A DNA stretch of 64,000 nt, from contig OZ005689.1 in NCBI GenBank assembly GCA_963930775.1, forward strand, positions 34,581,235 through 34,645,234. The letters are read 5' to 3'. The notes beneath the pieces were generated by a model that ran no database searches, was not told the origin of the DNA, and saw nothing but the letters and a program-made list of their open reading frames with translations. The stretch is from Cliona cf. orientalis (lineage: Eukaryota; Porifera; Demospongiae; Clionaida; Clionaidae). Shown in pieces: positions 6,926-26,032 of this stretch (the stretch's first letter is position 1; every line of letters begins with the position of its first letter). Position numbers and translations under genes: made by a program.

Positions 6926-9802
6926 TAAACTTGCTAAATGAGCAAGCCTCAGGTACCCAACCTTCAGTGGAGGATACCTCTTCCGCCGTTAAATGCTCCT
7001 TGAAATTGATGGGTAACATTTTTCCCGCTTAACAGATTATAGGCCAAGAGGTCATGACATCACACGTATTGCCAATGCCGAATTGTATTCAAGAAAGTAT
7101 AGTGACACAAAGTGTCTTGTACAGCATAGCAGAACAGCCAAACAGGCAGTACAGGCCTTCATGATATGTAAGACAGGTAGCTGCTACATTCTAGTACGTC
7201 GCTAGGGCGCTACTATACATACTATAAGCTACAAACATACACAAAAGCTTATAAGCTTACTAACCTCCATAATGGCCGCCGTCTTCAAGTCGCTCCCAGG
7301 TGAGCGCGGCTTGGCTCTGTTGAAAAGCTCGTCATATCTGTGTAGGTACAGACCTAGTCTAGCTATATACTTAGCGACAGAGCTGTAGTGGTAGAAAACG
7401 TACTGCTCTCGTACCCGGATCGATCGCCATTATCGTCGATCTTCACAAAAACGTTTGTAGTAGCGAGCGGTAGGTTGGGCCAACCGTGACCTCACGCCAC
7501 AGGTATGCAAGGGAGGCCCCCTAGTAGTAGTCATAGACAGGAAGCCAAAGTTATGGCTCTCATTCTTTGGAATGTAGGCGGTGCCATAGTTCTAATATAG
7601 CTGTACTGACGCCAATTGGCGTCAACGGTGGTTCGCGCGCATGACGCCAATTGGCATCAATGGCATATAATCGGTTAACCAAGGAAAGACGTCGCAAGGT
7701 CCTGGTGGGCATCCATAAGGATTTTGCTCACATGGCTGATGAGGAATTCAAACAGGCTGATATCCTCTTCGGTGAGGACGTAGTTGAGCAAGTTAAAAAG
7801 CGACATGATGCGCTAAAAACCTTGAGATCAATCAAACAGCCTTTTCAGAAAGGTGGCGCTCAAAAAAGGAACCAGTTTGCGCGTCAAGAAAACCAAGGGT
7901 TCACTCAACAAGGCCGGTACAAAACCGGACAGTTCAAAAAGCCAAGGTTCAGCTTCCAACAAAAAGGTCAATCAGCCCCACCCAAGAGGGATTAGGTGAT
8001 CTCCCACCTTGCAAAAGCCTAAAGATAGACTCCGCCCCACCCTCAGAAGCTGCGGGCAATTTAATCAGCAATCAAATACAGGTAGTTACACACGATCCAG
8101 TCCCAGACTGGGTAAAGGCAACACTAAGACCTCTAAACCTACACACCCCTTGTTCCGTCCCATTTCCACCCATCTCAATTCCACATCCAGTTCTTGCGGG
8201 CAGACTCCGCCTCTTTGTGGAGAACTGGAAGAAACTTACTCAGGACACATGGGTCCTGAACTGTATCCAGGGGCTCAAGATATCATTCAGTACGGATCCT
8301 TATCAGAGAGGAATCCCAAAATCTGTAATGAGCAAGGAGGAGGAGATTTTTATATCACAGGAGATCCAATCTCTCCTGCACAAAGGTGCAGTAATCCCAG
8401 CATCATATCACCCCGAGAATTTTTCTCCACAATTTTCACAGTTCCCAAAAAGGGTGGCGAACACCGTCCTATAATAAACCTGAAAGATTTGAACAGGTTT
8501 ATCCCTCATATCCATTTCAAGATGGAGGGTATACAATCCCACAGGGACTTTGTTCTTCCGGGGGATTTCATGATCAAATTAGATCTCAAAGATGCCTATT
8601 TTTCAATCCCTATACATCCTTTCCATTGGAAGTTTTTGAGTTTCAAGTGGATGCACAAGATCTTCCAGTTCACTTGTCTTCCTTTTGGTCTCTCCAGTTC
8701 TCCCCGAATATTTACATAAGTAATGAAACCAGCTATTACTTACCTCAGATCTCTAGGAATACGGATGGTTGTCTATTTGGACGATATGCTAATTCTAGCT
8801 CAGACCAAAGAGGAACTCCTCAAATGGAGATCAATGGTCCTGGATTTATTAGAAAACCTGGGTTTCCTCATCAACTACAAGAAGTCAGAATTGGAACCCA
8901 TCTAATATTTCTCGGTTTTCTAATCAACACAATGAACATGCAGATCAGACTGCCAAAAGACAAGATCAGTCAGGCAGTTCAGGAGGCTCAGAAGCTCCTG
9001 GAGGCTCAGCAAGATGCAGCAAAACAGCTAGCCCACCTGATAGGAGTTTTCTCCTCAACCCTTCCAGCAATCCTCCCAGCCCCCCTCCATTACAGAGGCC
9101 TTCAGCTTCTGAGGCATCAAGCCCTCAAGAAAGGAGGGTACGATATGATTCTTCCTCTCTCTCAGGAAGCAAAAGACGACCTGTTATGGTGGATTCAGAA
9201 TCTGAGTCTGGTGAATGGACAACCCCTGGTGAGAGATCAACCATCCCTCCTGATAGAGACAGATGCATCTCTGATGGGTTGGGGGGCAGTATGTCAGGAG
9301 TAGCGGATAGGGGGTCCCTGGACAGTCGAGGAGAAAGCACTCCACATAAACTGTCTGGAGCTGCTGGGAGCTACATATGCGATTCAAGCCTTTGCCAAGG
9401 AAAAACAAAACCTGGTAGTCCATGTGCGCATGGACAACACCACGGCTGTAGCATATGTCAATCATATGGGAGGAACGAAGACATCGAGGCTCTGCTGCAT
9501 GACAAAGAACCTGTGGGATTGGTGTCTTCAGCGACATTTAATCATAGTTGCATCCCACATCCCAGGGAAGCAGAATCCTCGCCAGGGTTTTAATCTCTCT
9601 GTATTGTCAGCTTCAAAGTCACGTTGTGATAAGGAGCCTGAAACTTCTGATATGTAATTGTAGAATGGCTAAGCACATACAATGTGTGCTAGCTATTCAA
9701 AATTGTATGAAGGTGAAGGCGGAGTATCACAACGTCCTACCATTGAGACCTTCAGTGGTCCCCATCACAAGGAACTTGTCACAGAATCTTTTTCATGCAT
9801 TG
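6926..9802 (+). mobile_element. DIRS-like retroelement fossil 2
   Basis: A second, different DIRS-type fossil. Parts are gag (about 6.93-7.03 and 7.68-8.0 kb, with LTKERRRKVL), reverse transcriptase (about 8.2-8.95 kb, with VVYLDDMLILAQ) and RNase H (about 8.9-9.6 kb, with ETDASLMGWGAV and MDNTTAVAYVNHMGG). The recombinase part is not seen. It is broken in several places. A piggyBac-type MITE (7029-7678) sits inside the gag region, and another begins at its right edge (9803). Confidence 0.75.
7029..7678. mobile_element. piggyBac-type MITE, copy 2
   Basis: A 650-bp element bounded by TTAA, left end TTAACAGATTATAGGCC and right end inverted TTAACCGATTATATGCC. Two GACGCCAATTGGCGTC-type palindromes lie next to the right end, the mirror image of copy 1. 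The minus strand keeps the exon-like GACGGCGGCCATTATGGAG followed by GTTAGTAAGC. It is inserted in the gag region of DIRS fossil 2. Confidence 0.85.
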
Positions 9803-10408
9803 TTAACCGATTATACGCGGAATGTAGATGACGTCATTACCCGTAACCGCTAAATTAATTTATGTAAAAATAGTGTACTAGTTATTAGTCTTTGTACAGC
9901 ATCCTAGAACAATTGTCATAGCTATGGACGCTTTATTCACACAAAGGAGTCATTGTACAACCTTCGTAGTTACTTTAGCTTCGTATGTACATATAGTACG
10001 CTATTTCTGAACATAAAAGCTTAAAAGCTTACTTACCTCCAAACCGTCGCCTCCTCAAGTCCATCCGTGGTTAATAGAACTCTTCATCTCACTTTGTCTA
10101 CACAGTAAGGTAGACATAGACCTAGTCTAACTGTATGCTTAGCGATATGTCTGTACTGCACGTACGGCGACAGAAAACAAGGCTACTTTAACGCTTAGGT
10201 CGATCGTGGCCATCTCGATCTTGATAAGTAATCTCGTTAGTACTTCCTTTCTGAAGGTCAACAAGTGACCTTGAAGCCACACTGGAGTAAGGTATTTCCT
10301 GTACTAACCTCAGACAGGATGCCAAGCCCAAACTAATCTACTATGGAATGATGGGCGTGGCTATAGCACAGCAATAATGGCGCTTGCGCCTTAAACGAGG
10401 AGGCGGAG

Positions 10409-10429
10409 TATAAAAGGGGAGTGGCCCGG
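10409..10429 (+). promoter_or_regulatory. K1 gene A promoter: TATA box plus GGCCCGG
   Basis: TATAAAAGG starts at 10409 and GGCCCGG starts at 10423, 14 bp downstream. The site lies 15 bp inside the left TTAA end and about 180 bp ahead of the gene A start codon at 10590. The same pair at the same spacing occurs at the other end of K1 and at both ends of K2. Confidence 0.75.
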
Positions 10430-13236
10430 TCAGAAAATGGCCGACAGGAAACGGATTGCAGCAAGATTCAAAAATGTCTGCGAGCTAGCTATACTATGAA
10501 TACACACTATACACACATCGCACTTTTTGAAGCGCAAAATAAAGCTATCAAAGCACAGAACACGTGGTATTTCTAATTAAAGAGCGAAAATGGCGAGTTC
10601 TTCGAGGAAATGTAAACGCAAACGCTACGGGTTTGACTTGAGTTTCGCGACCCTGGAGGAGAAAGCTTTTCTATAAAGGCTACAGAACGTCCGTAGAGTG
10701 ATGACACCAGCAGGAGCCCCTCTGCTCGAGAACCAGAACCTTGTCTATGCCCTACTTGATCTTGCTGAGTCTGGCTCCCGCCCGACCCCTGACCCCCATA
10801 GCGATAATGCTGGCCCAGCTACTAGGTCTTTCATGCGCAACAGTGGTAAGTTATGGAAAATGCTATGGCATGAGTTTACAAATACAGCAGTGAGTATAAG
10901 CTGCTATCAAAAATTTTAGGAATTTACACTGACGGTGCGGTGCGTCTTCTGAGGAGCAGTCTTTGTTTATTGGAGAAAGACATTGCTTCTCTGATTTAGT
11001 TGAAGGCCTGTCAACGCAATGCCCATGTGGAAAGACGAGCGCTCCCTGGGTACTAGAATCTGTTGTACAGGTATGAAGATCAATATGAAACTTTAGTCGT
11101 GTATGTTGATCCACTACTATCCCAGAAAGGGCACTCTATCCGAGCTCTTTTTTGTTGTCGCTGTAAGCAGCAAAGACGTACATGGTCTAGTTCCCGTGTA
11201 CTGGCAGGGCACTATATAGTGAACCAAAAGTATGTCTCATTGCCAGCTTAGAACATGAAATACATAATAATATTGTTTGTATAATTGCTATCATAGGATG
11301 GTGCATGCATTCACATGTGCGGGGATGTTGCCTTCTCTGTATACCCACTTGAGTATGTTTTCTGGCGTAGGAGTTGTTGGTCATGCTTACATCCGCCGAG
11401 GTTGTCTTACCCATGGTTGACAAAATATTATGTACAATTGTTGTCTACCTTTAGTGTATCAAAAGCTAGGGTACATTGAAATAGTTGGAAGAGCTGCTGA
11501 GATGAGTATGCGTGCTAGTGTAGAAGAAGTTCAAGCTCTTCCGGAGTATTCAACCAAAGAAGAGGTACAAGTGACTGCAAACCAAATGCTGTAATTTTAT
11601 TGTCTCCACCAACTTTAGTGGGTCATTACTGATGCACGGCATGCTTCCACAGCCAATGCATACCACAGTACAGTGCCATGCCATGCTTGTCTGGAAGTTA
11701 TCCATGTAGAACTTTTAGGGTTCTTGTCATCAGTTAATAGAATTTTTATGTGTCACAGTACGCACAAGATTGTTGGTATCAGCACCATCTCTCGAGCTGC
11801 TCATGCAGACTAGGGAGTTAGCTTGTACCAAAGATGTTCTGCCGCAGGTTATTGACCGAGGTTAGTTCTTGTGTGTGTGTCAAATTTCATGTCAATTGAG
11901 TATGTGCGATATAAATATAGGTCTCCATGTTTGTTGAAGTTGCTCATGATATCCAGGCACAAGTGGCCAAGTATATTAGAGAAACGCTTGGACTAGTTAA
12001 CTCTTATGATACTTGGCATGGTATGGTTGTATTTCAGCAACATACGTTGTTAGCTATGTTTATTATGATGATGCATAGGGACGAAGAATGTGGCCAGGGA
12101 GATGAAGAAGATCACTGAAGGCCGAGTGAAGGACAAGGGGAAAATGTGGTTCCCACAGCTTGTGGACAAACGTAAGGATGTCTGTGCTATTTGATATTTT
12201 GTATGTATTCACATTAATAATAGGAAGGAGTGTGAAGATACATCTCTACTGGGCCATGAAGAATTGCAGTGATTCACCCAGTAAACTCCAGGAACTGATT
12301 ATGAATATCCCCTGTCACTACCAGGTATATAATTTTGCACATTCACTGGGACGAGCCTAGCCTCACAACAGGCCTTGTACACCATAATAGCTATGACAGT
12401 GTACTTACAATTGTGTACATGTACATGTGCACACACAGGGCCAGCACTCCAAATGCCCATCTATCTTCCCTTGCCACACATCAGCCTACACACCGAGTAA
12501 GATCAAGCTGGATAATGAGAAGGCTATCGAGAGCTTACGCCAGCAGCTGAAGTCTACCTACATATACCGCAGTGCTGAAGATTTTTGCAGAGTGAGCACC
12601 ACACGTGTACAATGGGATTATTGTTTTATGTCTGTCTATTGTTCTAGTGTCATGACACCTACTGGGTAGTCCTTCAATCATCAGCTATTGACTTACTTAC
12701 CAAAGCGGATTCACTTCTCGACTGTGACGTTCAATATGAGAATGAATTTGGCAATTGTAGACTGGGTTAGGATGTTTGATACCTTCACATGACATTGTAC
12801 GTGTACACTTGACTAACTGCAGAACGAGAATGTGAATCGTGCTTACATCAGTGTACGCAAGGTGAAAGACCTCAGGAGACCAGATCGGCACACTCCCTTG
12901 AAGGTGCTGGTAAAGAAGAAGTACAGTTTTGTGGAATTGCTCTGGGCTATGTTTGTCACTCGAAACAAAGTTGACTTGATGTAAGTACTTTTGTGCCTCA
13001 CTTTAGAGATGACTTTATTGAAATTTTATAGGGAAATTGATGATGACGATAAGGTGGTGGTGACGATGGAGAGGAGTTTGAAGATGGGGAACAACTACCA
13101 CCTGAATCAGACTCAGATGAAAGTGAAGATGAGTGCTAAAGGTATGTATGCTAAATCTACTTGTATCCCCATGTACATGTATGTGGCATACATGTATATT
13201 TGTAGTCAACAGGCTCTGAGGGGAACTCTTGCTAAA

Positions 13237-13777
13237 TGTGACCGTCTATGGGAAAACCCACCATATGGGATTTTTTGTGAAAGTTGAGTTTGATGCATCT
13301 ATGATAAGCTCTACCATAGAGCTAACTCGCGTTCAAGTTCTAGACCGATCATATGCTTCGTTGTGGAGATACAGCGCTTTGTTTGCGATCGCGCCACACC
13401 CCCAATAATCGAGAAATTACGGTCCAAAGGCGTTGCTATGCACGCGTATGGCGTTTCCGCATACTACGCGTGACCCGGAAATAAATTAAATGGACCTGGG
13501 CGGAGCCGTTCGAAATGAACGTAAAGATCGAGCAAGAGTTGAATTTCGTTGTTGTACGGTGGCTGTGCCGACTAGGTGGGTCGAAATGAAGGCTTATTTC
13601 GCCTTCGTATAGCACGACTAGCCTCCATAGAAGACGGCAACAGTTAGAAGAAGGGTTGTTCGACATGTATATGACAAAATCTGGACTTTGACAAATTTCT
13701 GACTGAGCTAATAAAAACGTGCATTGCGCAAATAGCACGCGGATCCCATATGCCGGGTTTTCCCGTAGACGGTCACA
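13237..13777 (+). mobile_element. TGTGACC-family MITE, copy B
   Basis: A 541-bp copy of a subfamily whose ends read TGTGACCGTCTATGGG, inserted in the 3' part of K1 gene A. The flanks here are AA-rich rather than a clear TA. The exon segment is largely deleted after GAATTTCGTTGTTG. Confidence 0.8.
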
Positions 13778-14080
13778 AATAGTCACTACCCTGAATTGTT
13801 TTCCTTTTTCTTGCAAAAAATGTAAGTACACGTACACCAGATACGTCTTGCAGGACTAGTTGATATTACATGTACATGTACATACATGAATTCTGCTAGG
13901 AACTGCTGTCTCGTGTCACTCAGTTGCCTACAAATCGTCGTGTCTGTGTAGCCATAGTGGTTTTGCTGAATATGCACTGTTGTCCAATACATAAGATAAG
14001 TGTATACGTATTATTAAATTTTAGCATCATAATACACATTCTGTGACGTCACATTCATGTATCCATTCTCATTTACCATG

Positions 14081-14467
14081 TACCGTAGAATCCCGCGATT
14101 ACGCCCCCCCTTTGTGCATGCTAGGATTGGGCAAAAGTGGGGAGGGGGCTTATACGCGGGATCCTTACATTTCCGTGTGATGACCATTACCGACCGTCGA
14201 ATGCCACGTGGGCGCGCGATCTCTGTACTTTCTCTGGCTGTTTGGTAGGCAAAACTTGAGAAAAACGACAAAGCAAGGCATAATATGACACAAATAGCTA
14301 GTTTGCTAGCTGTAGCTACTGTTTTTGTTGATTTATGGGCTCCATTTTACAGTCAGGGAGGGGGGGGGGCTTATACGCAAGACAAAACTACCTATGCAGG
14401 AACTTGAGCTAAAAATGGAGGGGGGGCTTATGCGCGAGGGGGGGCGTAATCGCGGGATTCTACGGTA
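14081..14467. mobile_element. pogo/mariner-type MITE with CCGTAGAATCCC ends
   Basis: A 387-bp element flanked by TA, with perfect terminal inverted repeats of about 29 bp beginning CCGTAGAATCCCGCGATTAC. The inner part of each end runs into G or C homopolymers. The first eight bases match the ends of the autonomous pogo element at 37733-39911, so a related transposase may have moved it. It is inserted in K1. Confidence 0.85.
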
Positions 14468-15122
14468 CTATTATGCCTCCTTTTGCTAGAAACGCCTCTG
14501 GTGCCACTCCCCAGAAGTATCGTGTGTGTTTGATGTACCTTCTCTGCCGTGTGCTGAATGCATTTTAGGAGATCCTTGCTTAATGGCTCGTGGATATTTA
14601 TAATACATGTACGTGAAATAATTATTCGTATGCACACATACATGTAAATGTACATCTTGCATAATTTTACATGATTACTGGTACTGTGCACGAAATAGAA
14701 ATTGTTTTTGTATCATGTGTGCTTAGTCAAGCAGTATAAGGCCATGTACATGTACACTTACGATTATTGTACTAAATATAATTCGTACGTATATGCAGGG
14801 CAAGCAGTCTAAAAACTGCTCCAGCTCAAGGATGTTCAGAAGGAGGATTTGGCTGATCTGGATTAGGTTAGTGCTATTTTTATGCTCATGCTATTGCAGA
14901 ACCTTACGTATGTATTTATGCACGTGTATAATTATCACCTAATCACTCACTGAACACCAGGTACATGTGTAACCATATAGAAATTCCCCCTTGTGGATTC
15001 TATCTCTGGACTACGTCCGTCAATGCATGCAAGGACAGGTATCTAAAAGTTTACAATTTTTATGAATTTTTATAGGAACAAAGGGAGGGACTTTAGCTGT
15101 TCTTGTACTACTCTATTGCAGG

Positions 15123-15602
15123 CTAATCTTCTGCTGGGAACTCGGCCTCAGGCTTGTCATTCGCCATGTCTGCCTCGAAGGTGGACTTGTAGTCTCGATA
15201 ATTCCCATCATGGCTGGGGTACCTGGACCTGATCTCCTGGCGAGTGTAGAGAAAGGTAAGGATTTATGTAGTGTGGATACTGTAGTGTACGTGTACTTGC
15301 AGTAACAACACATTTGGGCATAATTTCCCTTTTATCATGAATGACGGTCTTTCCCTCCTTCCTCCGCAGGTACTCCTCATTCCACAGCCCAACGTCACTC
15401 AATACCTTCCAGAAGAGGCGGTAGAGCCTGAACCTCTTCTCATCGTTGGCCGGATGAGGACTAGCTGACCCACGGAGGAAGTCGGGAGGTAGCTGGATGA
15501 CACGGGGAGTGCAGAGACAGTGGTGGCAGTGATCCAGTCCTCGAAGCACTGGGTACCGAGGATTCTCCCGATATCCACAGGGGTGACTAGGGAAATAACC
15601 TA
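15123..15602 (-). pseudogene. K1 gene B: small Cys-rich accessory protein
   Basis: Minus-strand partner of gene A. Two exons are clear: about 15602-15307 (CHHCLC, then LPPDFLRGSASPHPAN and LFWKVLSDVGLW) and about 15255-15123 (EIRSRYPSHDGNYRDYKS, stop TAG at 15125-15123). The order matches K2 gene B, which looks intact. The expected first exon nearer the right promoter was not resolved. One cysteine of the C..C.C..C motif reads as R here. Its stop lies about 260 bp from the last gene A stop, so the genes converge. Function unknown. Confidence 0.6.
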
Positions 15603-16115
15603 CATGCAGTTGCAAATTTCAGCATCAGTACCAGGCTTCGTGGTGAACCTTTAGTAACTTATCCCCTACTTGAGGCATCCACTGGGTCAGGACTATCAGA
15701 GGCTGGAGAGATGCTGTGACTCCACCTCAAAGCAACAGAGGAGTTCGGAGGCTGATTTGCCATAAAAAAGTCCGTAAGCATGGCTACAAAGGCTGGAGGA
15801 ACCTGGGCTCCTTGACTCTCTACTCTCACCTATCAAATGTGGAAGACTTTACATGTAGTTTTTATGTTTTTATATTGAGTTACTATTCAATCTTACAGTT
15901 ATTTCAGTCTGTTCTGTGCCAGAAGCCATTGGTAGTAAACACACTAACAGTGGTTGCCAAAAAAGGTTTCAGTAGTAACCAAGACAAGTTGCCACGTGTT
16001 CAAGAGCTCTGACAGAGCTTACTGCGCGTGTGCATAGCTATGTGTAAGGGTGCATAGTGGAGGGAGTTTTGAAAGTTTGAGCCATTTGCAGGTGCATACT
16101 GACCAACTTCTGGTA

Positions 16116-16136
16116 CCGGGCCCTCCCCCTTTTATA
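16116..16136 (-). promoter_or_regulatory. K1 gene B promoter: TATA box plus GGCCCGG
   Basis: On the minus strand TATAAAAGG starts at 16136 and GGCCCGG starts at 16122, again 14 bp apart. It lies about 75 bp inside the right TTAA end and points at gene B. Confidence 0.7.
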
Positions 16137-16281
16137 CCCCGCCCCGACCTCGCGACTGCGCGATCTCCAAGTGCGCAATCTGGTTTATTTTATGCGCGCG
16201 CTCCTCGTTTAAGGCGTCTCTTGCGCTTAATGACATGCACGCGCATGCACCTTAAGGTGCATCTCGCGTATAATCGGTTAA

Positions 16282-17309
16282 TATTGCAATTATTATAATG
16301 CTGATTATATTTCAAATTATTATATACAAATATTATTATTAAGACAATTACCAGAACTTTATTGCTCGGTTCAAAGGCCTGTTAGGGCTGGGGCATGTGC
16401 ACTGGTGAAGGGGATTGAAGATACAGTCTACTAGAATTTTATCTTATTTTTCATATCAAAAAACGAGCAAACGAGCTCCTATGCAGCAGTAGCCAAACAC
16501 GATAAGTCAAAGTGCAAATGTTGTGCAAGATGTTCACGTGCACCTGTGGTAAAACTAATTGACCTTGTTTGCAGCTTCCCCACTAGCACTTGTACTCCCA
16601 GTTGTACATGTACAAGCATAGACTAGAGATTTGAACTCGGTGGCATGTACTAGCCAATGGAACACATGACCGACCAACTTGGGAATCGGTTGGCCATCAT
16701 GGCCACCCATTTTTGAAAACCTTATTAAGTCTCAGTTGTATTACAAGCCATGCAAACAACGTTCTCGTCATCCGAGTACGGGTGCCATGCATAAAAGTGG
16801 AAGTCGAGTCCTTTTTAACCCTTGGCACATGTGCAAGTGTTACAGTAGTCGTTCTGTGTGTCTGTTACCAAGCTACAGGTAGCTGCTCATTTGCAAGTCC
16901 AAACTGCAGTGTTACAGAGGACATGAGACGTTCATTATGCGCGTGGCTCTATCGTTTCACTGTTACATTCCATTCTATCATTCCAGTCCACCAACGTTTA
17001 CATCATGTAGTTTAGTGGCGTTAAACGTAGCTAACAGCGGGAGCCGGCCACATACGCCGTGCAGCAACGGTACAAGCGTGATCAGGCGCAGGCCGTGCCT
17101 ACCTGGTGTATATGGGCTGGCTCTCGGGCCCCAGTTGGGGGCCCTCGTTCGGGACTTCACCTCCAAAACAGGGGCCGAAGACCAGGAGCATGTGCCAATA
17201 CACCTACACACATATTACACTAGACTACCCAGGCGCCTGCAATATGCATGCATGCACAAATCACATCTGGGAGTTGCATGCAGGGGTGCTCACGTGACCT
17301 GTGGTTGCA
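16282..17309. other. Gene-free stretch between nested elements
   Basis: No reading frame recognised. A weak tRNA B-box-like word (GAGTTCAAATCTC on the minus strand) lies near 16630, without a convincing A box. Confidence 0.4.
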
Positions 17310-20300
17310 CGTACACTGGGGTGTCACTATTCGCTGGACTGGACCACTGGACTGGAATACTGGACTGGACTACTGGAATGTAATAAACACACGGAACTGG
17401 AATAATTGCGCATGCGCGTACGGAACATGTTGCCGTGCCACGTTGTCCATTTTCGAGCAATCATGGCTTTCAAGGTTAGTTGTGTATCTTCTCGTCCTTG
17501 TAGTTTAGTCTTAAATTAGTGGTTGATAATTGAGATATAAGTAAGGTTTTATGCCATTTTGTTATAAAGGATGGTTTAAGTCGCCAAACTGCGATCATAA
17601 TACCCGGTTCACCAGACGATCATTGTGGTAGCCCAGTTGAGATCAAAGGATCTCCGCTAAAAACTTTACAGCGTAGGAAGTATCGGTAAGTATAGATGCT
17701 ACTGTACTGTACATTTTAATACTTCGTTTATTACGATTTATGTCTATACTTGGTAATAGTGACATCATCAAGTTCATGGACGATAGTAGTCAGGATGAAA
17801 ATAGCATGGATTCTGACTGAAGGTAATAATCTCTCTCTGTGGGGAGTCACTAAAACAGAAGACATGATTCACCTTGTGTCCTTTTGACATAGATGAAACC
17901 TGCCTGGTAGATGATAATCCTAAAGCGAAGAAGCGGCTGAAATTCAGGTATTGAGGATACTATTTGCATGCATGATGGTCACTGGAGCATAATTAAGTCT
18001 TGTGTATATATTGCATGTGCGATCTAATACAATTATTATTATTATTATTAACTTTTTAGTGAGAATCCGCTAGAATGCCTACAACCAGTGTATGAGATCC
18101 CTCCCGCTAAGTATTGTGCAGAATACATCTTGAAAGTTCTTCTAAATCCTAAAATAGACAAACAAAAAATATGCAACCAAAAGCCATGCAATATTACCGA
18201 GAGCTCTACATTTGTCGTGGATGTACTTCGTCTGCAACATCCAGATGATATCAAAAAAGATGAATTTGGTATCTGGAAATATTCTGGATCACATTCTCAG
18301 GCTTACGTGTACAATGAGGACGGGCACCTTACTGTTGAGAAATGTGGTGGTGGTGCAACAGGGCCCAGTGTGGTGTATCTTAGACGCCTGCACTGTACTC
18401 ACCCATCTAATCCAGAGTTTAAACGGCTAATTTGTTTTGTGACTGGTAAGTAGCACAACTGTATGCATGCTCAGACCATAAATTAAATTATTATAGCATG
18501 CTAGCTAATTTTCATGGTACACTTTAAGATTAATTCTGAGGGCTTTCTCCGGATTTATAATCATCACATGTGTATGGTGTGCTTTAATTAGAGCGTTTTG
18601 GGGTTTGTACGTATACAGTGACCTTGTATGCATTGCATGCAAGTTGTATATAACCTTTCCGTAAGGTCACCTCTAAATTGGAGACATCTCGATTATACCA
18701 TCATACTATGTGCATGCAGCACGTCCCAACTACTACATACAGAATTAGCTATGTGAGCCTTTAGTCACAACACTTGAAGGGTTTGTCTGAATAAAGGGGT
18801 TCCACTAGTGCGTAGTAAGGGATGCACATACTATATTGGTCTATTATAGGCCAAGGGATTTCCTACATAAGCTTGTCATGAACTATGATGAGTTATACTT
18901 AATTTAAATTCTATAGATGGTTCTAATAATCCTCATCACCTCTGTCTCCTCGTCTATCGATTGCCTCATGGCTTCACTCCTCGCCTTTCTTCGCATGGTA
19001 ATTCAAGTGAAAAGAAGCCATTTTTCCCTACATGGCGCAGTGCCATGGAAAAAATCAAGGAAGATAGCTCGAACAAGGGCCCAAGAGAGATCGTGGAAGA
19101 TGTGTCTAGACAAAGCAGGTGGAATCGTGGGAGCTATTGCACCTGGTCAGCTACCAAGAGATGAAAAACAAATTAGCAACGTCAAACAAAGAACACAGCA
19201 AGGAACGATGGACAGTGTAGCTGATGAACTTTTTGTGGTAATGCAACGTGCATATGCTCAAGATACAACCAACAAGTTCATTCGGGATATCAAAATGGCA
19301 CCAGAGCCTGCAATTGTGCTTGCTGATGATCAACAACTGGTGGACTTGCAACGTTTCTGTACCTCTTCTCTAGATTTTGGTGTGCTTACAGTTGACCCTA
19401 CCTTTTCTTTGGGTGATTTCGATGTCACACCTATCACCTATAGACATCTTTTGCTTGAGACTCGCAGAGGTTGTCAAACACCCGTCTTCCTGGGTCCCAT
19501 ACTTGTGCATTATAAGAAGACGTTTGCTTCTTATTTATTTTTTGCTTCTTCACTTATTGGTCAGAACAAACAGCTAGAAGGTGTAAGGGCAATAGGCACA
19601 GATGGTGAACGGCCGCTTATAGATGCTTTTATGCATGAATTTGGATTTGCTCAACACTTGACCTGCTTTATTCATGTCCGCAGAAACATCAAGGATAAAC
19701 TTAATGAATGTGCTATTCCTTCTGAATTGACAGCCACAATCTTGAGAGAGATTTTCGGCCAAAGGCTTGGGTCTGTTTTTCAGGAAGGTTTGGTGGATTC
19801 AAGTGATACTGAAGATTACGACAAGAAATTACAGCATATGGTTGAGTCCTGGAGAAATTCAGAGATGCCAAGCATGTCAGATATTGACAAATTTGTTAAT
19901 TGGTTTATGACAAATAAGGCAGAAGTCATACGTAATACAATGTTGCGACCAGTTCGAGAGGAGTGTGGTCTTGGGAATCCTCCATCCATTTTCACAACCA
20001 ACGCGAGCGAGAGCATTAATGCTCTCTTGAAACAAAAGCTCGACTACAAAAAGCAAGAGCTTCCAGTGTTTATTGAGAAGATGAAGGAATTGGTGAGTGA
20101 ACAAAGACAAGATGTAGAACTAGCACTCGTAAATCGAGGAAAATTACAACTGAGATGTCAGTATCAAGCACTTGGAGTACGAGAGGGTGACTGGTTTACA
20201 ATGAATTCTCAGCAGCGTAAACAACATCTCGACAAACTTCATTCCATAACGGTAATGAATACCCACAACCCAGAAAAAGCAACCTCAAGTGAAGCAAATG

Positions 20301-21578
20301 AACCGCTCAACTTACCTGTTGATGCAGTGACAGTTTCTGCCTGTACCAATTTGCCCCTTACATGTGTTGAGGGAATGTGGATGAAAGCTATCAAGTTACT
20401 TCAAGAAGAAAATGCTATAGTTCCAGCTCCAGGGCAAAGTGCTGAGGCCAGAATGGTTCTAAGTTCCAGTTCTAAGACACCCCACATGGTGGTACCAACC
20501 AAAGGGGGTGGCTTCAGCTGTGATTCTAATTGCCCAAATTGGAAATCAATGGGATTATGTGCCCACTCAGTTGCAGTTGCCCACAGCAATGGAAAATTGC
20601 AGGAGTTCGTTAATTTTGTCAAAAAGAAAAAGAAAGTTCCCAATGTAACTGCTCTCGTCACAACCACTATGCCTAAAGGACGAGGAAGAAAGGGTGGAGC
20701 CCCTCCTCGCAAGCACTCCAGTCAACCAGCCGAGAGTTGTACCTGAATGTTGGAACACGGGTAGTATCAGATGTCCGCAGTGTTGGAACTGCAGCTGTTA
20801 TGTATCCACATGCACCTTCGTTTCCAGCTTCACTTCCACCTCCACCACAGCCACCAGCACCTCCGCAACATCCACCTCAGGCCAATTCTTTTCAGTACTG
20901 TGTACAACCATACTATAGTAACCCAAGTGGAGTCCATTTTTCACCAGGATCAACAAGAGACCCATGGAATTACAATCCATGGAGTTACCCTCTCTATTCA
21001 CAATCCTATTCACCAGCTGATGATGTCAATCCATTTTCGCTCTGTTTTATCAAGGGGAATATTTCTGTGTGTATTGGGTGTAAAAATCGCTACCCAAAAA
21101 ATGCTCAGCCTCCAGATGACCTATGCATTCGTCACCAGGAGTGGAGGGAGTTTACACCATCTGGAAGTGAGATTGTACAATCAAAGTTCTCCAATGTTTA
21201 TTATCACTGCAAACCACAATATGTGTGGTTGAGGTGCACCAATTTTGTTCCTGCTCAGTTAGACACCTCAGAAATCAAGGATCAACATGCTAATACGCAC
21301 AAGGAGTACTTGGCATTACATTTCGGAATTTATGTGTAGTACTAACTAATTTGGAAATGATTGTTTGCTTACTTTCTCAATAACATAAAATTGATTTTCT
21401 CAATAATAATATTATTATTATGGTAATGGTCGTTTTAATAGTGCGTGAGGGTGCAATGGTGACGTTTTTTCCATGCGCGCGCATGTGCAATTACTTCCGT
21501 TTTGTGACATTCCAGTAGTCCAGTCCAGTATTCCAGTCCAGTGGTCCAGTCCAGCGAACAGTGACACCCCGTACACTG
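17310..21578 (+). mobile_element. Mutator-like element (MULE) with 9-bp target duplication
   Basis: CGTACACTG occurs at 17310-17318 and again at 21570-21578, directly flanking inverted ends that start GGGTGTCACT. The inverted repeats are about 100 bp (17319-17421 and 21468-21569) and include degenerate CTGGACTGGA-type repeats. The element body is 4.25 kb and carries one spliced transposase gene on the plus strand. A 9-bp duplication fits the Mutator superfamily. Confidence 0.88.
17463..21339 (+). pseudogene. MULE transposase with SWIM zinc finger, slightly broken
   Basis: Likely exons: 17463-17474 (MAFK), 17570-17685, about 17759-17821, about 17893-17948, 18060-18445 (VYEIPPAKYCAEYILKVL domain) and 18917 to about 21339. 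The last exon holds the DDE region with VLTVDPTFSLGDF and AIGTDGERPLIDAF (likely catalytic aspartates), then HLTCFIHVRRNIKDKL and TTNASESINALLKQ. A SWIM zinc finger follows (FSCDSNCPNWKSMGLCAHSV). Beyond it is a proline-rich stretch and a Cys-rich tail (ISVCIGCKNRYPK). The reading frame changes near 19105 and again near 20730, and an early exon ends at an apparent stop. It would need only a few changes to be open, so the copy is fairly young, or some breaks are assembly errors. Confidence 0.8.
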
Positions 21579-22103
21579 GCCTGGGTCCCACTAAAGCGTA
21601 GTTATAAGATATGACCTGCTCCATACCAAACACTACATGTACCCGAACAGCGACCTGAGTATCGCACACTCAGCCACATTATTATCTAAGGTCTAGGTGA
21701 GAGAGTACAGCAGTGTCAGCATATCAGCCATAATTGTTGCGCAAGGGGGATATATTATATGATATGGATATTATACATGTATATGTATTTCTAGACACTT
21801 CAGACATTCTTGCCAGTTAGTGAATCTATGAAGATCAGTACAGTGATGAGTGGCTGTGTTTCACGGAATCATGTTTGAGAAACTTCCACTGAAAGTATAG
21901 GCCTTGAAGTTGGTGGTCTAAAGGAAGCTCCTTTGCCATTGCCACTCACACCAGTCAGATGTTCCAGTCTACACTTTCCACTGCAAATGAGTGGTGCTGT
22001 ATGATACAATTTTTCCAAAGGCTCACCAAATACATTGTAACCAGCAAGTGTCATGTGTCATGTCAGAAGTGCTTGCTATGTAACAAACCACTCCACTTGT
22101 AGC
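21579..22103. other. Gene-free stretch between MULE and K2
   Basis: No gene recognised. A 61-codon open frame on the minus strand (22054-21869) has no motif I know. Confidence 0.4.
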
Positions 22104-22189
22104 TTAAACGAGGAGTGTGCGCATATAATTTAATTTGTGCACGAACGCGTAGTTTGGGCGTACACCGCGATCGCTTCCATTCGCGAGAG

Positions 22190-22210
22190 TATAAAAAGGA
22201 AAAGGCCCGG
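22190..22210 (+). promoter_or_regulatory. K2 gene B promoter: TATA box plus GGCCCGG
   Basis: TATAAAAAGG starts at 22190 and GGCCCGG starts at 22204, 14 bp apart, about 180 bp ahead of the gene B start codon. Confidence 0.75.
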
Positions 22211-22386
22211 TCACGACCTTTGACCCTAAGCGGCACATTTGAATTTCAACTGTCTCTCTCGATGTACAAGCAAGCGCGCTATAACGCTAGCTCACGCTCT
22301 AGCTACCTACACGTGATAGTAAGCCACGAAGCCACGTGGCTTACTACTGCACATACAGTGTGCATACAATAGTGTTGTATTTGACC

Positions 22387-23108
22387 ATGGCCTCCAGCTC
22401 TTCAGCTAAGCAACAGAAACAAATTAAGGTGATTGATTCAAATGCATGACAAAGATAAGAGAGTGAAACAGTGTGTGTGCATGTATATTCAAAACAGGTA
22501 GCTGTTAAACATGATTCTGGGCTGCCTCCAAGCTTCAAATCCAAGCTGAGCAAGTTTCTTTGTGAGAATAAGCCACCTGAGTTTAGATTCTTTTTACGTA
22601 TGGAAGAGTCTGAGAGTGCAACTCCACCAACAAAGAGACGTAGGGTTTCTTCAACACCTGTAGATAGGCAGCAAATAGCTCGGGTACCCAGGGGCTACAC
22701 TAACGATTCCAATTTCCCGGTATTGATACTGGAGGATGACGATGAGAGATGCCCCCACTGCTTTTGTCGGTCATGTGTCATTAGCCAACCACCAGATTTT
22801 CTCCGAGGGTCAGCTGCAGCACACATCCGGAACCGTTCCAAGCGCTTCAATCTGTACGTGAAGTTTTGGGGGCTGCTATCGGATGTTGGGTTATGGTATC
22901 ATCCTGAGAACCTAGTGAGGAAGGCAACAATCACTGAAAGGGATGATCCGCGGAATATCATGCCCGAGTGTGTAAAAACGGTAATAAAAGACTATATAAA
23001 TGTAATTAAAATTAGAAAGAATTACTTCCAATTCAGGAGGTGCGTGGAAGATATCCAAACCCAGAGGGAATACCCTACACCGATTATCGTCCAACATTCA
23101 TGGCATAG
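22387..23108 (+). CDS. K2 gene B: intact 198-aa Cys-rich accessory protein
   Basis: Three exons in phase 0: 22387-22428, 22498-22980 and 23037-23108, each with GT-AG borders. Together they give 198 residues without a stop. The N-terminal half is basic and polar (TPPTKRRRVSS). The core has a C-x2-C-x-C-x2-C motif (CPHCFCRSC), then QPPDFLRGSAAAH and VKFWGLLSDVGLWY. The C-terminus is EVRGRYPNPEGIPYTDYRP. K1 gene B shares the last three blocks. I recall similar small proteins near transposons of this type but no assigned function. The Cys cluster may bind zinc; a role in transposition is inferred from conserved pairing with the transposase. Confidence 0.8.
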
Positions 23109-23130
23109 ATGGTACTTACTACACAGCTAG

Positions 23131-25756
23131 CTATGAATCGTCCATTTCATATTCTTCTTCACTTGATAGGGCATCACCATAGTCTGCCAAATCATCTTCA
23201 CCACCTTCATCCTCCTCGGTTACTAAGGGCCTGATAGCAATAAAATTATGTATATGCATATTAGGTTGTTGCATAACATCAAATTGAGTTTAATATTACG
23301 TGCATTATAGAATGTTGGTTGGATTGTACAAACCTGAGATCGTTCTTATTTCTCATAAAATACTCCATCCAAATCTCCTCAACGAAATGGTAAGATTTTT
23401 TCACCAAAACCTTCATGGCAGTCCGTCTGTCTGGTCATCTCAGATCAAACACGTAACGCTCACTGGTTGACAGTCGCTGAGAATTCTCATTCTATAATAA
23501 ATTTTCAGGATTATGACATGTACACGATACATGTATATTATGTGGTATCATTACTCACCCAGTCCAATACAGCCAGATTCATTCGCATGATGAAGGTCGT
23601 AGTAGTGAAATGTATCCGTTTTGGAGTATACGTGAGGAGTTGGTGGTTGAAAGATTCAACCCAAAACGTATCACGGCACTAAAGAATAATTTGATCCAAC
23701 TTAAACCAGTTATTTCAGAACACAAACTTACTCGACAAAAGTCCTCTGCATTACGGTGTACAAGAGTACTCCGAAGAACCTTCTCATACGCCTGAATAGC
23801 ATTTGGGTCGGTGAGCTGGATTTTACCCGAGTATCCAGGTCGCCTACACGACGACTCCTCATGACAGTCTGTGTGTATACCCTATCAAGAAAACAATAAT
23901 TATATATCAAATAATATTATAGTACATAATTATTGAAGGCTGATGTGGGCTATGCATTCACAGATTTACACACACACACACACACAGTAGGTGGATATTA
24001 CAGAAAATATACCTGATAATGCTTGCTTGTTGCCAACACATTCTGCTTTAGTTTGTCTGCATTACCACCCGAGTTCTTCATGGACCAGTAAATGTGGGTC
24101 TTTGTACCCTTCACTGTACATACCATAGTGTAATAAAATCAAGACTCATAATAGTTGTATCTATCACGCACTTTTGTCGGACACTTGTGCAAACCTTGTC
24201 TTCCCTTCATTTCTGACCCCACCCTGAGCTATTTTTTTCACCACTCTGGCTACATTTTTGGTGCGTGTACAGTGTACATGATGATATATAAGGAATGTAC
24301 ATGGAACTCTTACCATGCCAGGTATCAAACGAATTCACCAGTCCCAAATCCACAGCTTCATACGTCCTCAGCTGCGTGTTGTAGTCATGTGCCACCTCAG
24401 TTATGTTCAGCCCTACAATATATCAACAATATACGATGAACAATAGTACTCCTTGCACATGTGTGCGGGGTAGTATATTATATACATGACATTCTGTACC
24501 TCGTGAAGTAACATTAGACAGCACTTCCTTCGTACACGTTAGCTCACGAGTTTGGGCAGTCGAGTGCTCCTTTCAGGATAGTGTACATACACCAACAATC
24601 TTCTTTGTGCTGTATAAATATGTAATAATATTAATATATTACATGCTATGTACATGTACACACATGTCGTACCTTCCAGATAAACAAGGGACAGTAGTGT
24701 GATATGCATTCTTGGTTGAGTCATGTCTTGCATCGGTCATAACCCACTACAACAATTTGTAGCATCATGGCACAGATTTTACAACCACATAACATACATG
24801 TACCTCACCTTTAGATGGATACTCTGGATTTGCCTTTGCCTCCTCCACAGCAGCATTCATGGACTTGAGAGCCACAGATGACACGACATCAATGAAAGAA
24901 TGCAAGTGGTAAACTAGACAGAAAAAAATGCCATGTGAAATAATTATTGAGGTCATTCATGGGATCATTTACCTCGTTTTATGTACCATTTTCCAACCGT
25001 GCCTATCCCTGAAAACTGACTGAATCGAATGTACTGAGATGGGAGCATCCCAGCACAAGTGAAAGCATGAACAAATCTAAAAAAAAAAACCCTCATTCAA
25101 TAAATTATAGTGAGCAAGGGGAAAAAGCACCTTTGATTGACAAGATAGTGCCCTCCAAATATCCTTGAGCTGGCCCACGTTCGCCTGGATCTACACTTGG
25201 TACACCCAAACTCAAGACGAGCAACATGACAAATCTACACGTGGTATAAACTGTAATGAATGACCTATACTTCAATAAGAAATCTTCTATATTACTTGCT
25301 TCATTGACGCTATATACCAACTTCCATAGTTAGCACAGGAGCATGGTCGAACAATGGAAGTACACAGATTCTCTAATGCTCTCTTCTCGACAACATAGAG
25401 TTCCTGGTCAGTGTCTATGCTATCTGAAGCATAGACACCTGTCGGTATCACACAGCATGGAACATAGATACAATGCAATGACATGGATAGCACTATTTTT
25501 ATAGAAACACACCTGAATCTTCCAAAAAAGACCCAACTGTGTGAGTATGAGAGGAGGATCTACGAGCAGCCCCGTCATTTTCAGCCATATCGAACAGCGC
25601 GTACATCAAAGCGTTATTGTCCAAGGGAGCAGAGCCTAATGGCGTCATAAGATCCCTGATCGACTCCAGCCTTGTAACAAAAGCTTCTTTGTCTTCTTCA
25701 GTCCTGAACTTGATATCAAAACCAAAGCGAGTGCGTTTCCTTCCACCGGTCGCCAT
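23131..25756 (-). CDS. K2 gene A: Kolobok-like transposase, one in-frame stop
   Basis: Minus-strand gene of about a dozen short exons. Exon 1 is 25756-25513 (MATGGRKRTRFGFDIKFR), exon 2 about 25438-25317 (ending with CSCANYGSW). Further exons carry HAFTCAGMLPSQYI (about 25.06 kb), YHLHSFIDVVSSVALKSMN (about 24.88 kb), WVMTDARHDSTKNAYH (about 24.72 kb), EVAHDYNTQLRTYEAVDLG and NSFDTWHG (about 24.36 kb), KTHIYWSMKNSGG (about 24.1 kb), FWVESFNHQLLTY (about 23.65 kb) and AMKVLVKKSYHFVEEIW (about 23.4 kb). The acidic tail ends EEYEMDDS, with TAG at 23133-23131. TGA at 23437-23435 replaces the R codon seen in K1 (DLRRPDR). Apart from that stop the exons read open, so the gene is close to intact. 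TDARH and FDTWH likely hold catalytic aspartates. Confidence 0.7.
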
Positions 25757-25965
25757 TTTTTCTTCGAAGTAAAAAACCCACATTTGCTATTTCCATTTTA
25801 ACCCTGTAGGTACTGGGCATGTGCAGTGCAGTGGGTAGGGCTAGTTTGAAAATACGGCGGGAACGCCAGCGCCTGGCTTAGCTACTGGTACAGCGCTAGT
25901 TAGCGTACCCACGTGTATACGCAGCCATTTCTCGCTATGTAATTAAAATTCGAACGCCATACTGG

Positions 25966-25986
25966 CCGGGCCCCGCCCCTTTTATA
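25966..25986 (-). promoter_or_regulatory. K2 gene A promoter: TATA box plus GGCCCGG
   Basis: On the minus strand TATAAAAGG starts at 25986 and GGCCCGG starts at 25972, 14 bp apart, in a GC-rich context. It lies 15 bp inside the right TTAA end, as at the gene A end of K1. Confidence 0.75.
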
Positions 25987-26032
25987 CCCCGCCTCCTCGT
26001 TTAAAGAATAGGCTCCCAATAATATTGCCAGA

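Follow-up and report, generated by a model that had tools for sequence, protein, structure and literature searches.

Two diverged Kolobok-like transposons of Cliona cf. orientalis with convergent transposase and KolX-like genes and candidate core promoters in their subterminal repeats

Two elements with convergent genes

The window, that is the whole stretch of 64,000 nucleotides of Cliona cf. orientalis DNA analysed here (contig OZ005689.1, positions 34,581,235 to 34,645,234 of the forward strand), harbours two elements, K1 and K2, whose parts are listed in Table 1. They lie in opposite orientation and follow one shared plan, as an earlier note on this DNA had described: in each element a small gene with cysteines (gene B) converges with a spliced, transposase-like gene. 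Start codons, assigned by eye, are found 181-230 bp downstream of each TATA in K1 and K2; the TATA-type boxes that the note had assigned to both ends are upheld. K1 is a decayed, dead copy with a stop codon in exon 1 of its transposase gene and two nested insertions; gaps excluded, it is about 95% identical to the 4947-bp L080 copy. By eye, the K1 exon that should carry the catalytic glutamate looks frame-shifted relative to subfamily K5 (see below), and in K1 gene B an arginine replaces one cysteine of the CxxCxCxxC motif.

Table 1 Features of elements K1 and K2 (positions in the window)
Feature	Position	Strand	Description
Element K1	10391-16212	+	5822 bp including two nested insertions; transposase read from left end; TTAAACGAGGAG tips
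K1 left tip arm	10391-10415	+	pairs with 16188-16212; 25 nt, 80%; inverted-repeat search
K1 left inner arm, TATA + GGCCCGG	10402-10430	+	pairs with 16115-16143; 29 nt, 86%; overlaps tip arm
TATAAAA + 14 + GGCCCGG, K1 transposase side	10409-10429	+	pattern search of window
K1 transposase gene	10590-13140, ends approximate	+	many exons; broken (exon 1 stop); stop from L080 comparison, rest by eye
Nested insertion in K1	13232-13782		40-nt inverted repeats, 88%; gap versus L080
Nested insertion in K1	14080-14468		perfect 32-nt inverted repeats; gap versus L080
K1 gene B (KolX-like)	15120-15931, ends approximate	-	domain exon within 15301-15600
K1 right inner arm, TATA + GGCCCGG	16115-16143	-	44 bp from tip arm
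TATAAAA + 14 + GGCCCGG, K1 KolX side	16116-16136	-	pattern search of window
K1 right tip arm	16188-16212	-	partner of 10391-10415; inverted-repeat search
Element K2	22104-26004	-	3901 bp; opposite orientation; transposase end at 26004; from tips, repeats, ORFs
K2 right (KolX-side) tip arm	22104-22128	+	pairs with 25980-26004; 25 nt, 76%
K2 right inner arm, TATA + GGCCCGG	22189-22213	+	pairs with 25963-25987, 76%; 60 bp from tip arm
TATAAAA + 14 + GGCCCGG, K2 KolX side	22190-22210	+	pattern search of window
K2 gene B (KolX-like)	22387-23108	+	domain exon 22498-22980; last exon about 23037-23108; P2RX7_C 0.065
K2 transposase gene	23120-25756, ends approximate	-	many exons; by eye
K2 left inner arm, TATA + GGCCCGG	25963-25987	-	partner of 22189-22213
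TATAAAA + 14 + GGCCCGG, K2 transposase side	25966-25986	-	pattern search of window
K2 left (transposase-side) tip arm	25980-26004	-	partner of 22104-22128

Tips and subterminal inverted repeats

The tip sequence TTAAACGAGGAG occurs exactly at 10391 (+), 16201 (-), 22104 (+) and 25993 (-), and six more matches with two mismatches are present in the window. As a stand-alone family marker this 12-mer was ruled out, with 62 matches in the genome against 120 in the reversed control and hence no enrichment. Both tips of K1 and K2 abut TTAA while the outer flanks are unlike; TTAA is also found at most of the other ends that were read, the exceptions being the left tip of L014 (TTCA) and the KolX tip of L083 (TGCA).

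The combination of TATAAAA with GGCCCGG 14 bp later has just four matches in the window at up to two mismatches, one at each end of K1 and K2, and shuffled sequences contained 0.24 on average (none of 100 shuffles reached four). All coordinates that the earlier note had given for these pairs are correct. It had also taken the identical spacing at both ends as evidence of a shared module, and this argument is weaker than it was put: the inverted-repeat search reveals that the four end boxes lie in arms of subterminal inverted repeats and are homologous, and because of this homology the identical 14-bp spacing at four ends is not independent evidence. Four independent matches were therefore rejected as a description of the boxes. 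At the left ends the tip arm and the inner arm overlap in the TATA; at the right ends they are separated by 44 bp (K1) and 60 bp (K2).

Gene B resembles KolX

Gene B, hand-spliced from its domain exon and its last exon, features a CPHCxCxxC motif, a central KRFxLYxxFW and a final EIRxRYPxxxGxYxDY. An alignment of seven rows contains five cysteine columns, of which C17, C20 and C90 are invariant and two more are kept in six of the seven rows (by eye). P2RX7_C, the intracellular domain of P2X7, was the sole Pfam family to match all seven hand-spliced members, two of them K1 copies, at E values up to 1 (best 4.6e-5). The K1-type protein scored 23.1 bits, just below the Pfam cut-off of 23.5, and the K2 protein matched weakly (0.065). 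Gene B is a KolX-like protein. A His-Me nuclease, the partner in KolobokP, found no support as an identity of gene B (HNH_2 in one of seven members at 0.081, against seven of seven for P2RX7_C). For the domain exon, modelled with the last exon omitted, AlphaFold gave a mean pLDDT of 59, too poor to use; Foldseek found no match for this predicted fold in the PDB. Sequence searches of the PDB yielded neither a P2X7 nor a transposase match, and the profile search gave no match at all.

We know of no role that has been assigned to KolX in the transposon. Among the papers searched, the word KolX occurs in PMC9587614 alone. In the accessible text of that paper, Kojima and Bao describe KolX as resembling the P2X7 ballast, whose fold contains two zinc ions along with seven cysteines that are conserved, and propose KolX as the source of the cytoplasmic ballast of the P2X7 receptor.

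The transposase and the relation to Kolobok

The K5 transposase was hand-spliced from one copy, with one unresolved splice junction entered as X, and matched the Mutator-like Pfam family PF20700 (9.8e-7, 28.5 bits, cut-off 26.5). By eye, TDARHD, AHD, FDTWH and VESF were recognised in this copy, corresponding to a DDE arrangement with DxxH between the second D and the E. Identity as a piggyBac transposase found no support, as the Pfam result is Mutator-like and no piggyBac model in Pfam matched the hand-spliced protein.

A DDE transposase together with KolX is the gene content of the Kol0 lineage of Kolobok, according to the accessible part of PMC9587614. The TTAA ends and the KolX-like gene point to a Kolobok-like family. 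If a 4-bp TTAA duplication is assumed, the termini start with AC and end with GT, which departs from the 5'-RR/YY-3' rule of Kolobok; the palindromic TTAA leaves the exact cut ambiguous, and a 2-bp TA reading would give a start with AA. Because TTAA and KolX fit Kolobok but the AC start does not, we use the name Kolobok-like and leave formal membership aside. To this extent the Kolobok-like identity claimed in the earlier note is upheld.

The family in the genome

The genome searched comprises 217 Mb in 149 contigs. The left end of K1 has 25 matches, its right end 17 (some of them short) and the KolX side of K2 four. Exact pairs of TATAAAA and GGCCCGG at 14 bp occur 24 times, against three in the reversed control; 23 of them are located no more than 150 bp inside an end of the family, as listed by hand from the end-sequence searches (K1 ends, KolX side of K2 and tip). 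Searching with the gene B domain yielded 73 matches, and with a transposase piece 108; after merging of neighbours these correspond to at least 71 and at least 63 loci, both being lower bounds. Gene B was found within 8 kb of 52 of the 63 transposase loci, convergent in all 52 and in no other orientation; 11 transposase loci are without gene B and 19 gene B loci have no transposase in reach. This count is based on all 108 transposase matches, and a subset of 68 gives the same result. The earlier note would have abandoned its reading if gene B were missing from most copies, and the 52 pairings show the opposite.

Subfamily K5 accounts for 19 gene B matches (65-69% identity to the K1 query) and 19 transposase matches (90-92% identity to the K5 query). 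Three aligned K5 right ends are near-identical within the element and unlike outside, and the block-pattern search detected the same block in 19 right ends; these two observations suggest a recent burst of K5. Gene-less relatives are present as well: a derivative of about 389 bp (C1:31368441-31368829) has the block at either end, with CATAAAA in the left copy, and a 694-bp element in L057 has it at one end only.

Conservation of the ends

Among six left-end types, mean pairwise identity ranges over 0.81-0.96 between the tip and TATA+13, falls to 0.59 at +14 to +21 and 0.38 at +22 to +29, and is near background thereafter (0.26 beyond column 100). Among six right-end types the tip (0-23) reaches 0.51-1.00 and the next 48 bp 0.25-0.31; identity then amounts to 0.52 at TATA-8 to -1, 0.85 at TATA 0 to +7, 0.37 at +8 to +15, 0.58-0.68 at +16 to +31 and 0.40-0.44 at +32 to +63, and beyond that only about 0.2. 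Left and right ends alike have a conserved TATA region, and conservation fades at the left ends where a start site would lie whereas it continues past such a position at the right ends. The TATA begins at an offset of 18 from the tip in seven of the eight listed left ends, the eighth (L023) reading TATAATAGG there by eye. At the right ends the offset is 74-76 in five of six types and 86 in K2, across a stretch that is unconserved and of near-constant length; the right tips contain a second TATA-like stretch at offset 18.

The GC-rich box is more variable. In K1-type copies the exact TATAAAA+14+GGCCCGG is present at 9 of 18 left ends and in 9 of 16 right-end matches, and the looser GGYCNGG at 14 of 18 and in 11 of 16, two of the 16 right-end matches stopping short of the box region. 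By eye, seven of eight left-end types show GGYCNGG at +14 and six of six right-end types YCNGG. The K5 copy read at both ends, a single one, has GGTCAGG at both; the right-end box is TCCCCGG in K3 and GCCCAGG in K4, and the K4 left ends examined, four in number, all have TATAAAAGGGCCCGCCC or a close variant and no box at +14. The counts of exact and loose boxes speak against a fixed motif. The earlier note had named copies without the paired motif as evidence against itself, and it is affected in part: the pair is retained at the frequencies given above and is absent from the K4 left ends. AAAATGGCG follows the left box and GACCTTTGACC several of the right boxes; the factor names that go with them (YY1-like for AAAATGGCG) are our presumption. 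Covariation of left and right boxes was rejected as proof of an element-encoded binder: over five subfamilies, left-right matching within a subfamily is not above chance, 42 of 120 permutations reaching the observed sum.

The shared spacing could be a mere trace of the common descent of the ends, with a GC box that has no function. This would agree with the homology of the boxes and with their differences between subfamilies and among K1-type copies. However, identity in the box columns reaches 0.64 at the left and 0.74 at the right, whereas 2000 shifted controls averaged 0.25 and none was as high, a control that does not remove common descent. We regard such a functionless box as improbable. 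The block pattern of the family has 33 matches in the genome and none in the control, a comparison that is partly circular as the pattern was derived from the same family.

Possible functions of the subterminal block

The left end leads into the gene of a DDE-type transposase with a DxxH motif and the right end into that of a KolX-type (P2X7-ballast-like) protein. At each end a conserved tip, about 25 bp long, is accompanied by a GC-rich subterminal block with TATAAAA, which in most cases is followed some 14 bp later by a GGYCNGG-like box. Most likely this block acts as core promoter for the gene on its side, and transcription of both genes would run inward from similar promoters that belong to the repeats of the element itself, a layout known from maize MuDR. 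We favour a promoter because a standard TATA is found in nearly all end types with the start codons 181-230 bp on, and also because just 18 bp of the element lie upstream of the left TATA. From gene order, repeats and conservation, all of them directly observed, we infer that the block serves as transcription start, that both genes are jointly expressed and that the transposase possibly binds at the block. Promoter use and co-expression of both genes are plausible; the co-expression proposed in the earlier note seems reasonable, with homologous repeats and not four independent matches as its basis. Several observations speak against a promoter: conservation at the right ends is patchy (0.37 at TATA+8 to +15) and continues past a start site (0.40-0.44 at +32 to +63), the GC box varies (K4 left ends, K5, half of the K1-type copies), and the right tips hold a second TATA-like stretch at offset 18. 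The promoter may possibly lie between the TATA and the start codon instead, or the TATA-like stretch of the right tip may be in use.

The main rival to a promoter is a block that is chiefly a subterminal repeat bound by the transposase, with the TATA inside the binding site or incidental. It explains a good part of these data: the inner arms form inverted repeats whose distance from the tip differs between the two ends, one K5 copy has GGTCAGG at both ends, and the gene-less derivative of about 389 bp keeps the block at both ends (CATAAAA on the left). Inner sites of known transposons are also unequally spaced from the tips, namely in piggyBac, where a spacer of 3 bp on the left and 31 bp on the right separates the 13-bp terminal inverted repeats from the 19-bp subterminal ones (accessible text of PMC8151067), and in the P element with internal transposase sites at distinct spacings (accessible text of PMC7776569). 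Arguments against a binding repeat are the standard TATA in nearly all end types next to a GC box that varies, the missing box at +14 in four of four K4 left ends, left-right box matching no better than chance and the 694-bp gene-less element with a block at one end only; we consider it rather unlikely that binding is the chief role of the block. Both functions may be combined in an autoregulatory loop, in which the transposase (or KolX) would occupy the block across the TATA and thereby lower transcription of both genes. The overlap of the left tip arm with the promoter-like block in the TATA would suit such a loop, as would the terminal inverted repeats of MuDR that hold promoters and transposase site together (accessible text of PMC3440606); we take this to be possible rather than probable.

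The reading that we prefer explains K1 and K2 best as two members, now diverged, of a TTAA-inserting family of Kolobok-like DNA transposons, with convergent genes for a transposase and a KolX-type protein and an inner block as core promoter at each end; taken as a whole, promoter role included, we hold it to be moderately probable. By analogy with the cysteine-rich domain with which piggyBac recognises its own subterminal repeats, one may speculate that KolX is a DNA-binding partner reading the TATA/GGYCNGG subterminal repeat at both ends, which we think very improbable. If true, KolX would sit on both core promoters, and transcription of both genes would be coupled to the assembly of paired ends. 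With at least 71 KolX-like loci, with KolX always convergent to the transposase where both are found together, and with the apparently recent K5 subfamily of 19, this genome is a good system to ask what KolX does, and it also suits the question whether the KolX promoter doubles as a transposition site.

Comparison with known systems

The piggyBac ends (accessible text of PMC8151067) share the TTAA target, the short terminal repeat with an inner repeat and the unequal spacers with the present family, whose transposase differs in having no piggyBac match in Pfam. KolobokP (PMC9587614, accessible text) likewise has an accessory gene downstream of the transposase on the complementary strand, but this gene encodes a His-Me nuclease, and long direct repeats form the ends. 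Kol0 shares with the present family TTAA at both ends, a DDE transposase with DxxH and a second gene of the KolX/P2X7-ballast-like type. Differences to Kol0 are the AC ends, compared with 5'-RR on the 4-bp TTAA reading, and five aligned cysteine columns instead of seven; the accessible text of PMC9587614 makes no mention of TATA-bearing subterminal repeats or of the gene orientation in Kol0.

The convergent two-gene plan as such is already known, and the useful addition of the present analysis is the detail of the end structure. MuDR of maize is not known to carry a KolX-like gene and generates a 9-bp target duplication, not TTAA. Its terminal inverted repeats are about 215 bp long and, as far as the accessible text of PMC3440606 goes, contain the promoters and the transposase site within the same repeats. 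Two convergent genes (mudrA and mudrB in MuDR) are common to both systems, and promoters within terminal repeats, a feature of MuDR, are predicted here for the Kolobok-like family.

Probably recent copies and insertion sites

The search recovered at least 19 copies of the K5 subfamily (for example L082–L085). In the three copies aligned, the right ends, on the side of the KolX gene, are near-identical to each other and the surrounding DNA is unlike, and this combination suggests that transposition of K5 was recent. In one K5 copy, L083, TGCA is present in place of TTAA at the KolX end.

Two back-to-back tips at C12:8928874-8928893 have one TTAA in common, which resembles the outcome of an insertion into an existing element's target site. 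K1-type left ends (the transposase side) at C1:23212066 and C1:23217329 share an identical 12-base outer flank, and the pair perhaps arose by local duplication that included the flank. A further locus, L057, features only 694 bp between family tips (7842-8535), a length insufficient for both genes, and the TATA block, a candidate core promoter, is kept at one end only.

Element between K1 and K2

A distinct element with CTGGACTGGACCACTGGACTGGAATA-type inverted ends sits between K1 and K2. Its 609-aa ORF matched a MULE domain weakly (0.0018, below the cut-off).

Positions of features in the window
Feature	Position	Other loci
K1 left-end stretch with AAAATGGCG-like motif	10409-10450	
CTGGACTGGACCACTGGACTGGAATA-ended element	17320-21570	
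609-aa ORF of this element	18917-20746	
220-aa ORF of this element	20677-21339	
K2 right-end stretch with GACCTTTGACC	22190-22240	L081, L088, L093
K2 left-end stretch with AAAATGGCG-like motif	25940-25986	

Motifs downstream of the TATA block

At the left ends of K1, K2 and the family members L020 and L045, AAAATGGCG or a near variant lies about 23–27 bp past the TATA start; we take this motif to be YY1-like. The right ends of K2 and of the subfamilies K3, K3b and K4 carry GACCTTTGACC about 25 bp past the TATA start, which presumably resembles a nuclear-receptor DR1 site.
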